From Pseudomonas sp. 7SR1 (GTDB lineage: Bacteria > Pseudomonadota > Gammaproteobacteria > Pseudomonadales > Pseudomonadaceae): 64,000 bases of DNA. Shown one piece after another: positions 1,318-62,281 of this stretch (position 1 is its first letter; the number at the start of each line of letters is the position of its first letter). The DNA is taken from the NCBI RefSeq assembly GCF_900156465.1, contig NZ_LT707064.1, positions 1,462,001-1,526,000 on the forward strand, read 5' to 3'. The translations under genes were made by a program, and so were the position numbers. Below the pieces are notes generated by a model, which was not told where the DNA came from, did not search any database, and saw only the letters and a program-made list of their open reading frames with translations.

Positions 1318-1430
1318 TCCACCAAGCTACGCATCCTTGCGCCTTTGCCTACAACTACGCCAGAATCCGCCCGCTTGTGCGCCTTGTCCCGGGGTTCTAT
1401 TGTTTTCCTGCCACTGCCCATCAGTGGTCG
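1318..1430 (+). repeat. Dispersed intergenic repeat, copy A
   Basis: This stretch (CATCCTTGCGCCTTTGCC, then CAGAATCCGCC, then GGTTCTATTGTTTTCCT) matches copy C at 8231-8390 from its left end and copy B at 5266-5383 from CAGAATCCGCC onward. The match to both fades after about 1418, where copy A continues into a different 3' block, the folded leader of the downstream DUF6124 gene. The arrangement looks modular. The same frame is open in all three copies, but differences between copies mostly change amino acids, so it is treated as a DNA or RNA element. Confidence 0.7.
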
Positions 1431-1617
1431 GGTTTAGTAGCCCGGTTAAGGATACGGTCGCATGAGTCTCATCAGTCGGGCATTGCCCGCACTTGATGGT
1501 GGCTGTGCGCATGGCGCCTTCGGGCGCGCCGGGTTTTCCGTTTTCCTACCGGTCTACTAACTTGCGCACAGCTGCCTCCCTTTCGTTTAGTAGCGAGACG
1601 GTAGCGGCCTACTAACA
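1430..1617 (+). promoter_or_regulatory. Highly structured leader upstream of the DUF6124 gene
   Basis: The leader contains GTTTAGTAG at 1432-1440 and 1585-1593 and the complementary CTACTAAC at 1554-1561 and 1609-1616, so each arm has two possible partners. It also holds a perfect 10-bp pair GCTGTGCGCA (1502-1511) / TGCGCACAGC (1563-1572), a CGGGCA-T-TGCCCG hairpin near 1477-1490 and a GCGCC-TTCG-GGCGC tetraloop hairpin at about 1514-1527. The pairings are partly exclusive, which suggests an RNA switch or a site-specific DNA element. It ends just before the Shine-Dalgarno AAAGGAA of the next gene. Confidence 0.6.
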
Positions 1618-2847: not shown

Positions 2848-3842
2848 TCAAGCGGTAGCGATAAATCTTGCACCGCCCTGGCAGTGAACTGCCCCAGAGA
2901 AACGTTGGTGCCGCCTCGCCACCACACCATTTGTCTTGGCTTTCTTTTTCTCGAAAAATCGTTTGGCATCTTCGCTGAATCGCCGGGCAAAATTGGCCGC
3001 TTCAATGAAGCTCCAGATCAGGTAAGCGTTGCCGTTTTTAGCGTTGCCTTCACCTTTCTTTTTACCATTGGAGTAATGGGCACTTTCTACGCACCGAGCA
3101 TAGGAAGCAAAGTTACCTACCTGCGCAAAACGTCCGATATCACCCGTTTCCAGCATGATCACCGTCGCGAGCACTTCACCTACCCCCGGCATCGTTTTCA
3201 GCAAGGAATACTCAGGTCGTAATTTGACCTGTTGAAGCAGTCGCTCTCCAGGCCAGCGATTTGGACCTCAAGCGCCTGGATAACGGCAACATTGGCCTTC
3301 ATCGCCAAGGCTACATCCGTTGACAGGCCCAGCCTGTCAACGGATGTAGCCGAAAAGCCTTTGACCTCATTACAGCTGAAGCTATGCCCAAGCTGGCGTG
3401 CCGCAATGTTTTCAACGGCCAGGATGTGCTGGGTTCTTGTACGTACCAACTGAATTCGTTTACGCGCCAAATCTCGTAGCGCTCGTTCGTGCGGTGGATG
3501 AATATAGCCCGTCGGCAGAATCCCTAGGCGCAGCAAATGCGCGAGGAATGCTGCATCATTCCTATCGTCCGAATGCTTTAAACCGTCATAGCGTTTCATT
3601 GCCACCGGGTTCGCCAATTTGACGTCAAAACCCACAGCCATAAGGCCGTCGACCAGCCAATACCAGTTGTACGTTGACTCAACCACCACGCCAACCAGCT
3701 CATCACGGTGTGGTTCGAGGAGTGAGAGAATCGGCTTAAGCTCATTGGGACAGCGTCGGCTAATCAGGACTCTGTCCGCTTCGTCGGTTACCACCACAAC
3801 GCTGTTGTTCGAATGCAGATCTATGCCACAGAATTTCATCAC
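2848..3842 (-). pseudogene. IS110-family transposase, frameshifted
   Basis: The N-terminal part (from 3842, RBS GAGGAGG) carries the RuvC-like DEDD domain: GIDLHSNNSVVVV with the first Asp, VESTYNWYW, and the DRNDAAFLAHLL segment with the later acidic residues. The C-terminal Tnp_20 domain (LKTMPGVGEVLATVIMLETGDIGRF, then SYARCVESAHYSNGKKKGEGNAKNGNAYLIW) lies in another frame. One base appears to be missing near 3240-3245, where LESDCFNRSNYD replaces an expected LLQQVKLRPEYSLLKT continuation. The extreme C-terminus after AKTNGVV also departs from the family and may be truncated. It is therefore judged inactive. Confidence 0.85.
3309..3351. repeat. Perfect 19-bp palindrome inside the IS110 pseudogene
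   Basis: The arms GGCTACATCCGTTGACAGG and CCTGTCAACGGATGTAGCC are exact reverse complements around the loop CCCAG. In the transposase frame this encodes ATSVDRLGLSTDVA, so it lies within coding sequence and does not disrupt that frame. Confidence 0.8.
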
Positions 3843-48689: not shown

Positions 48690-49393
48690 ATCATTACCCT
48701 TACTTCGATTGGACACGGACAAAAGCATGGAAGGGACCGCTCATGGCGACACGAATCCGCGCTTTTGCCCCCGTATAAGGTCACCCCGAGCACGCGCTGG
48801 CGGCTGACTGGCGGGCGAAAAAAGGCGCAACTATTGCGAGGCGAGGGGGGATCGTCTAATGCCGTAACCGCCTACCCCATGCCGAATCGGCATGAGTTTT
48901 TCCAAACAAAACGCGCGTCCCAACCGGTTCGAATGTGCCAATTAGGCAGGCAAAAGCGCCGTGAACCGGCCATTTCAGCGTAGCCTGCGCCTTTTTCAGC
49001 GCCAGGAAAACCGCCAGGGCTCAGACAAATTGTCGCAACGTCATTTAATGAAATAGCGCGAACCTTCTCCGATTAACGGTCAGGTCCGGAAGGGAAAGAG
49101 CGCTGGAAGGGCAAAAAACCGCAGGGGATGGGGCACGGCTGGGATAAAAATGACCAGGCGCTCTGGCTCAAGCCTCTTGCGTTGAAAAGCTCTCCGCAGG
49201 TTCGCCCAGCCCCAGGGACTTTGCGAACCTGCGTCGCAGCTTTTACCTGACCCGGCCCTTTCGCAGGCACCCCTTGTGCCCGTAGGTCACTCCGACCCTC
49301 AATGGTCAGAACGTCCCAGCCCCCTGGTCATGCAACAGCCCTCTTCAGGCTGTGCAGAGGGAAAAGCAAGACTGCTGTTCCCGTTGTCGAAAC
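48690..49393. other. Long gene-free region upstream of gltP
   Basis: Both neighbours are read leftward, so this stretch lies upstream of gltP and downstream of the Ivy gene. Short open frames here lack ribosome sites and family matches. It carries the large palindrome at 49185-49244. Small RNA or long gltP leader are the likeliest contents. Confidence 0.5.
49185..49244. terminator. Large palindrome with A/T flanks, bidirectional terminator or sRNA 3' end
   Basis: AAAAGCT (49185-49191) pairs with AGCTTTT (49238-49244) and CGCAGGTTCGC (49195-49205) with GCGAACCTGCG (49223-49233), enclosing a 17-nt loop. Only a 3/4-nt internal loop interrupts 18 base pairs, and both strands end in TTTT. It lies 150 bp beyond the stop codon of the Ivy gene, so it could end that transcript; it is also a candidate small-RNA terminator. 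Confidence 0.6.
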
Positions 49394-62136: not shown

Positions 62137-62149
62137 CCGAATCGCAGGC

Positions 62150-62281
62150 AAAAAAAACCCCGGACTTCGTATGGGGAGGGGGAAGTTCGGGGTCCAAGTT
62201 CCGGACCGCTAGGGCGGGGTCCAGATATCTGCCAACACTTAACACAACATAGGAGCATTGAAGGGCTTCACCAGCCATTCA
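62150..62281 (-). ncRNA. ersA: ErsA small regulatory RNA
   Basis: The position between engB and polA is that of ErsA (Spot 42-like locus) in Pseudomonas. Reading leftward, a promoter of AlgU type (62287-62314) predicts a start near 62280. The transcript ends in a hairpin of 12 pairs with one G-U (ACCCCGGACTTC / GAAGTTCGGGGT on the plus strand) followed by eight U, about 131 nt in all, close to the known 132 nt. Upstream of the hairpin are CU-rich and GGACCCCG segments suited to Hfq-assisted pairing. ErsA in P. aeruginosa is AlgU-dependent and acts on algC, oprD and biofilm genes. Confidence 0.85.
62157..62193 (-). terminator. Rho-independent terminator of ErsA
   Basis: ACCCCGGACTTC / GAAGTTCGGGGT with a 13-nt loop; on the minus strand it is followed by T8 (62150-62157). 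It can also stop polA readthrough and, weakly, engB. Confidence 0.85.

Follow-up and report, generated by a model that had tools for sequence, protein, structure and literature searches.

A C4-type antisense RNA unit before a DUF6124 gene of Pseudomonas sp. 7SR1 and its relatives in the genus

C4 and related antisense leaders

The C4 RNA of bacteriophage P1 is named an antisense RNA in the title of the study by Citron and Schuster (1990). The GenBank record of the phage places the promoter P1c4 first, followed by sites a1 and b1, the 77-nt C4, a second set of sites (a2 and b2) and the icd gene. Sites a1 and a2 both read TTGACAG, b1 and b2 are GTTAGTGC and GTTAGTGA, respectively, and C4 extends from GGTGG to GCCACC and pairs with all four of its own sites at -13.0 to -19.3 kcal/mol. 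P1 C4 brings about early transcription termination; in the P1 and P7 experiments of Citron and Schuster it reportedly acted in trans, and an effect of Rho is also said to have been seen. The specificity of the P1 and P7 RNAs is described as being set by a' (PMC5320573). A motif survey of 2010 listed C4 for Proteobacteria and phages (PMC2864571) and is reported to have predicted it in Pseudomonadales among others (PMC5320573); C4 is also touched on in a review (PMC12197685).

Similar leaders have been described elsewhere. The CI RNA of the satellite phage P4 is an antisense RNA that is cut from an untranslated leader and pairs with sequences 5' and 3' of itself (seqA and seqC) (PMC4825925). The Salmonella RNA IsrK, which derives from a leader, makes a ribosome-binding site accessible on its own mRNA (PMC4825925, section 21). 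In Burkholderia cenocepacia, C4 and isrK are reported to form one transcriptional unit (PMC4603805), and the C4-like RNAs of Acinetobacter baumannii are apparently processed from longer transcripts (PMC5320573). A literature search, mostly outside subscription papers, returned no paper that names DUF6124, one that mentions DUF3077 in passing and no report of an expanded use of C4 before DUF6124. Here we describe a C4 unit in a 64,000-nucleotide stretch of the Pseudomonas sp. 7SR1 genome (the window) and compare it with its relatives.

The leader RNA and its parts

A sequence-only reading of the window had proposed that a structured regulatory RNA forms the leader of a DUF6124 gene, and Rfam models for C4 (RF01695) and the c4-a1b1 element (RF03163) both matched this leader over their full length. 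The same reading had taken the RNA for a possible riboswitch without a described counterpart; it is instead a C4 antisense RNA together with the a1/b1 targets of C4, and each of the two is an Rfam family. Because the leader matches the RNA family of the P1 and P7 C4 above the cut-offs and its layout is like that of P1, the RNA is not an undescribed riboswitch. Judged from sequence and predicted fold, it is a further member of the known C4 antisense family, real and conserved. The elements follow the P1 order of promoter, a1, b1, C4, a2, b2 and start codon, with b2 overlying the Shine-Dalgarno:

1351-1379, + strand: 29-nt box overlapping the -35 element, common to most C4-DUF6124 units of the genome
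1375-1403, + strand: predicted sigma-70-type promoter (-35 TTGTGC at 1375-1380, 17-nt spacer, -10 TATTGT at 1398-1403)
1397-1448, + strand: c4-a1b1 element (RF03163; 53.3 bits, gathering cut-off 46.7)
1429-1444, + strand: a1 hairpin CGGG-TTTAGTAG-CCCG, which holds the first octamer of the sequence-only reading (1432-1440)
1448-1457, + strand: b1, which lies upstream and matches b' less strongly (duplex of -10.0 kcal/mol, rank 2 of 15)
1492-1582, + strand: C4 antisense RNA (RF01695; 70.5 bits, gathering cut-off 45, E 1.1e-11 in the window scan)
1533-1548, + strand: P3 loop with b' (core approximately 1539-1547), the anti-Shine-Dalgarno segment, predicted to pair with its own b2
1554-1561, + strand: a' (CTACTAAC), within the unpaired junction of the C4 fold
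1585-1593, + strand: a2 target (GTTTAGTAG), the complement of a', mostly in a small hairpin loop
1609-1616, + strand: fourth octamer of the sequence-only reading, lineage-limited or coincidental
1617-1626, + strand: Shine-Dalgarno (AAGGA at 1618-1622) and b2 core (1619-1626), assigned from the sequence and the per-locus match of b' and b2
1632-1994, + strand: DUF6124 protein of 120 aa (PF19619, E 1.8e-31, scanned from the GTG at 1626)
2014-2040, + strand: intrinsic terminator closing the single-gene unit (12-pair stem and T-rich tail)

The C4 fold comprises a closed stem and two hairpins with 28 predicted pairs, and the alignment of the window C4 contains two non-standard pairs. The ends of the RNA resemble those of P1 C4 (GGTGG...GCCACC), and from this comparison we infer a mature C4 at approximately 1498-1579. 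The 10-bp stem proposed earlier between GCTGTGCGCA at 1502 and TGCGCACAGC at 1563 is present as part of the closing stem P1, and the two hairpins proposed with it exist as well, the UUCG-type one as P2 and the other as P3. Related leaders also covaried, with at least one double-sided change in each of 17 of the 28 predicted stem pairs among the 15 genomic copies of C4. For a2, 62 of 83 distinct leaders place the core within the loop of a hairpin, versus 38% with shuffled flanks.

The repeated words on which the earlier proposal was built, GTTTAGTAG at 1432 and 1585 and CTACTAAC at 1554 and 1609, lie where it had placed them, and a search of the + strand of the 64 kb found them, like the stem strands GCTGTGCGCA and TGCGCACAGC, at the stated positions only. 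They had been called mutually complementary octamers. The complementarity is there, but its perfect part is 7 nt long (TTAGTAG/CTACTAA), with one pair more past a bulged U. When 1430-1617 was shuffled 20000 times with dinucleotides preserved, 117 of the shuffles held some 7-mer twice together with two copies of its complement; taken as bare words, the quartet is uncommon, yet not extreme. Comparison with other loci, not word statistics, upholds three of the four octamers: those at 1432, 1554 and 1585 correspond to a1, a' and a2 of the C4 system, and the 47 parsed loci (see below) with the a' CTACTAAC have a1 in 47 cases and a2 in 46.

Conservation in other copies, which had been expected of all four words, did not extend to the fourth. 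An exact CTACTAAC near the Shine-Dalgarno was found in 4 of the 47 loci with the same a' (the window, L050, L051 and L077), and an 8-mer of the locus's own a' was found there in none of the 69 loci with another a'. For this reason the proposed switch, a cis-acting riboswitch that would open or hide the Shine-Dalgarno by pairing 1585 with 1609, perhaps upon sensing a small molecule, is not conserved. The four words exist and could pair on paper, and the fourth recurs in three further loci; however, the predicted ensemble of 1410-1640 assigns 0.03 expected base pairs to 1585 and 1609, and two known Rfam antisense families account for the region, which makes such a switch extremely improbable. 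A small-molecule riboswitch was rejected on the same two counts, the identity of both halves as antisense families and the unconserved fourth octamer. The ensemble assigned 6.4 expected base pairs to a1 with a' and 0.58 to a1 with 1609. Alternative pairings with consequences for the Shine-Dalgarno, another part of the earlier proposal, are predicted; the element that matches the Shine-Dalgarno is the P3 loop (b'), which the proposal had not named.

The promoter predicted ahead of a1 would start transcription at approximately 1410. It is weak by consensus, and a generic consensus scan (at least 9 of 12 matches) listed none. Among 64 distinct loci, 57 have the pattern TTGNNN-N17-TANNNT, picked after viewing the aligned leaders, in the interval -200 to -70 relative to C4, versus 15 of 1280 shuffles, and at these 57 loci it sits 100-140 nt 5' of C4. 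The 29-nt box that overlaps the -35 element had 11 matches in the genome (up to 3 mismatches) and a reversed-pattern control had none. Nine of the 11 sites lie 5' of C4-DUF6124 units, one is at a DUF6124 fragment and one is on the opposite strand near the locus L012; the box core GCCAGAATYC was found at 39 of 64 loci. This near restriction of the box to C4-DUF6124 units suggests a shared regulator. A coding origin of the box was considered and seems unlikely, the differences among its copies appearing, by eye, unlike codon changes.

At its 3' end the unit departs from the P1 immI operon, where icd and ant lie downstream, and consists of one gene, DUF6124, with its own terminator. The surrounding DNA carries on the minus strand an HTH_Tnp_1 transposase frame 5' of the unit (702-1010) and, just 3' of it, an IS110-type transposase whose two pieces overlap (DEDD_Tnp_IS110 and Transposase_20; 2848-3842). 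Further minus-strand Rfam matches in the window are the Pseudomon-1/ErsA RNA (62142-62258, 139.7 bits) and the ivy-DE RNA (49240-49330, 89.6 bits).

Likened by description, P4 CI shares with this locus a leader-derived antisense RNA with flanking pairing sites, but it acts by premature transcription termination (PMC4825925). The IsrK RNA of the Salmonella prophage Gifsy-1 (RF01394) also forms the leader of an operon that includes an antirepressor-like gene, but has its own terminator (PMC4825925). Its model matched the a1 region (1410-1472) at 21.6 bits, below the cut-off of 50, and we make no claim that the leader is an IsrK RNA.

Locus-matched pairing and the proposed mechanism

For the pairing analyses we assembled 132 C4 loci, 15 from the source genome, 87 from a search of named relatives, phages and plasmids, and 30 that were the best-scoring hits of other genomes. 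A weak minus-strand match (L126, 28.8 bits) was left out. A simple parser dropped 16 of the 132, 15 for misfit P3 arms or an overlong loop and one (L148) for a short, empty segment; the dropped loci include ordinary-looking folds such as L133 and L010, the latter from the source genome and kept in the 15-locus pairing test. The remaining 116 parsed loci, 64 of them with distinct b' loops, include three from phage or plasmid records. The windows searched for a1, b1, a2, b2 and the promoter were set after viewing the sequences, and the automatic start codon was wrong at a few of the 15 loci, which leaves the duplex tests unaffected.

In the 15 genomic loci b' varies more than a', with 15 b' loops and approximately 10 a' types by eye. 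Duplex energies between b' and the Shine-Dalgarno region averaged -15.1 kcal/mol for a locus's own target and -8.7 kcal/mol for those of the others. The own b2 ranked first in 12 of the 15 loci and second in the other 3, and 0 of 100000 permutations reached as low an energy. The window b' ranked its own b2 first among the 15 genomic targets (-13.1 kcal/mol), in a predicted duplex with one bulge that extends to the start codon. Pairings of a' with a2 or a1 and of b' with b1 were likewise better than every permutation, their ranks being less sharp; a' ranked its own a2 first in 5 of the 15 loci, and the a'-a2 pairing of the window was the weakest (best duplex -6.6 kcal/mol, outside the canonical register). 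When the energies of a' and b' were summed, the own target was best for 13 of the 15 C4s, two pairing slightly better with another locus, and the own C4 was the best partner for 11 of the 15 targets.

The larger set behaved similarly. The 64 distinct b' loops paired with their own b2 at -14.95 kcal/mol and with others at -8.96 kcal/mol (0 of 20000 permutations); the own b2 came first for 29 loops and in the top 5% for 48 (median rank 2), and fell below fifth for 12. A control on a coding stretch showed no such effect in the 64 loops (own -8.60 and others -8.43 kcal/mol, with the median rank at 32 of 64). Because relatedness could inflate tests of this kind, the pairing test was rerun inside the group that shares the a' of the window. 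For its 22 distinct loops the energies were -13.6 (self) and -8.6 kcal/mol (other), with 0 of 50000 permutations as low, and the own target was first for 10 loops over a range of ranks from 1 to 18. At a', too, loci matched themselves: a stretch complementary to the own a' over 7 nt or more was present in a1 at 114 and in a2 at 112 of the 116 parsed loci, and a1 and a2 both had such a perfect match at 111 of 116 versus 13 of 3997 pairings between loci whose a' differ. Judged from these duplexes, pairing specificity appears largely but not wholly private to each locus. The b' loops differ approximately 1.7 to 2.9 times more than the remaining C4. Diversifying selection on b' was considered and is unsupported, b' exceeding the synonymous-site distance in 57 of 1035 pairs (46 of 47 loci) in a comparison that leaves gaps uncounted and uses non-independent pairs.

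The computation establishes the identity of the RNA, its layout and its locus-matched complementarity. A C4-type antisense RNA unit very probably controls the DUF6124 gene, and repression of DUF6124 translation by C4 is its most likely effect. One transcript would run from the promoter at approximately 1375-1403 through a1/b1, C4, a2/b2 and the DUF6124 gene to its end at 2040. C4 (approximately 1498-1579) would be freed from this transcript, with RNase P, which acts in P1, as the probable nuclease, and would fold into the stem with two hairpins. Its a' (1554-1561) could then pair with a2 (1585-1593) and its b', in the P3 loop, with b2 over the Shine-Dalgarno (core 1619-1626), an interaction that would block translation of DUF6124. 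Early transcription termination may ensue, by analogy with P4 and P1. The upstream a1/b1 would compete for C4 and may tune or relieve the repression.

The same parts could also be arranged as an attenuator in cis, in which a1 pairs with the nascent C4 in competition with a2 and a free antisense RNA is not needed. In the folded leader a1 and a' are predicted to be paired approximately half the time, as the 6.4 expected base pairs indicate, and IsrK provides a precedent for a leader RNA that acts on its own mRNA (PMC4825925, section 21). Yet the C4 of the window retains a closed stem and P1-like ends, and its P1 counterpart is an antisense RNA by title (Citron and Schuster, 1990). The locus L057, one of the low-ranking ones, bears on the question as well: a 366-aa frame with IS110-type transposase domains (1612-2940) separates C4 from a2/b2, and b' and the remote b2 still fit each other (-16.9 kcal/mol) across this insertion, be it old or recent. 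We therefore consider action purely in cis unlikely and retain the C4-type antisense RNA as the probable regulator.

C4 units and their proteins in the genome and genus

The source genome holds 15 C4 matches above the cut-off, and 14 of them have a DUF6124 match no more than 120 nt downstream, split over two frames at L010. Downstream of the fifteenth (L008) come two frames of 53 and 96 aa, a DUF3077 gene and then a frame resembling, by eye, a phage primase. Such numbers per genome set these RNAs apart from the C4 of P1 and P7. They recall the Group 1 sRNAs of A. baumannii AB5075, many C4-like RNAs in one bacterial genome, for which the part of the report that describes them gives no common downstream gene family, unlike the DUF6124 genes that follow 14 of the 15 C4s here (PMC5320573). 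Pfam assignments for neighbours of the other 14 units comprised two LysR-type proteins, a sensor domain, an FMN reductase, an AbiEii-type protein, a levansucrase, a glycosyl hydrolase 15, part of a transporter and two frames without a match. Phage families were absent from these 10 frames, chosen by eye and non-randomly from 27 flanking frames.

There are 19 DUF6124 matches in the genome, four of them without a C4 (at 2495801, 1764706, 1123173 and 5472910). One is a natural C4-less unit (L045, G000:C1:2495000-2496600), with an open DUF6124 frame, a below-cut-off hairpin resembling a1b1 and no C4 match; repression is accordingly not essential everywhere. Two further loci of the source genome (L043 and L044) have below-cut-off a1b1-like hairpins without C4, followed by proteins of 89-90 aa without a Pfam match. 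The same protein family lies 3' of C4 in two other genomes (L148 and L149).

RF01695 matched in 54 of 59 genomes of the genus, source included (53 above the cut-off), and in 0 of 14 control genomes. At least 1001 C4 matches were found over the 59 genomes, with at least 54 in one of them; these copy numbers are lower bounds, as up to 61 candidates were scored per genome. PF19619 was present in 47 and PF11275 in 45 of the 59 genomes. Copy numbers of C4 and of DUF6124, the latter counted with fragments, correlated across genomes (Spearman 0.87, and 0.93 once DUF3077 was added, kinship being ignored), although in some genomes numerous C4s accompany few DUF6124 matches (at least 38 and 2, respectively, in G009). 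The spacing of the unit was nearly constant: scored with our own model, 78 of 80 named DUF6124 loci have the end of C4 44-54 nt upstream of the start codon. These are the best 80 of at least 565 confirmed relatives and lean to close relatives. The exceptions were L097, with just 95 nt of upstream sequence, and the split unit of L057.

In the class-wide search, run with stricter filters at which weak hits are lost, C4 occurred in 6 of 114 gammaproteobacterial genomes, the source and, with 1-3 copies each, 5 of the 113 others. In 30 other genomes of the genus, the genes 3' of one C4 locus per genome were classed by eye, representatives alone being checked by profile. Ten were DUF6124-like, 11 had a 52-57-aa frame as at L008, 4 were Bro-N/antirepressor-like (one cut short), 2 had an 89-aa frame, 2 were DUF3077-like and 1 was unclear. 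At L139, L142 and L144, C4 precedes a 175-aa gene of the Bro-N/antirepressor-like class, with a Bro-N match (E 1.4e-11) and a PHROG anti-repressor match at L139, an arrangement reminiscent of ant in P1.

The AlphaFold2 model of the DUF6124 protein (mean pLDDT 75.9) has a low-confidence start, a helix at residues 15-37 and a helical hairpin at 62-114 that is confident over most of its length. Foldseek retrieved nothing at E <= 0.001 for this model from the PDB (232 weak matches) or from viral models (429 weak matches). Evidence that DUF6124 and DUF3077 are homologous is suggestive only (hhalign probability 64.5%, and some proteins match both Pfam models). Links of the two proteins to phages are mixed. 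The DUF3077 protein matched two PHROG families of unknown function and, by tblastn, no phage record; the DUF6124 protein of the window had no match in PHROG, and DUF6124 matched a single phage record, at the record edge. Among phage and plasmid records, 2 of each contained DNA resembling the C4 of the window.

C4 is known from phages, the L008 C4 precedes a DUF3077 gene and a primase-looking frame, and some DUF6124 copies are fragments, all of which would suit a degenerate prophage relic without present function. Against such decay, the median dN/dS of DUF6124 was 0.14 (66 pairs among 12 close relatives), a value that indicates purifying selection in close relatives; further, b' and b2 change together, and promoter-like and terminator-like elements are kept. 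A relic is thus very unlikely, and control of DUF6124 by a C4-type RNA remains our preferred reading.

The riboswitch claim was set aside because a known RNA family explains the element, and the interest of the locus lies in the scale and deployment of that family. We propose, tentatively, that Pseudomonas chromosomes carry domesticated and expanded C4 units, up to dozens per genome, each with a promoter, C4, DUF6124 and a terminator, a near-private pairing code and often the shared box. These could possibly constitute a library of immunity or addiction units derived from the immunity systems of phages or satellite phages, with DUF6124 as the effector held back. The C4 units would also serve as a natural data set on the divergence of an RNA pairing code in the wake of duplication. 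If they are active, a single genus would run many parallel antisense circuits, most of them matched to their own gene, and the DUF6124 and DUF3077 proteins would become testable through the removal of C4.
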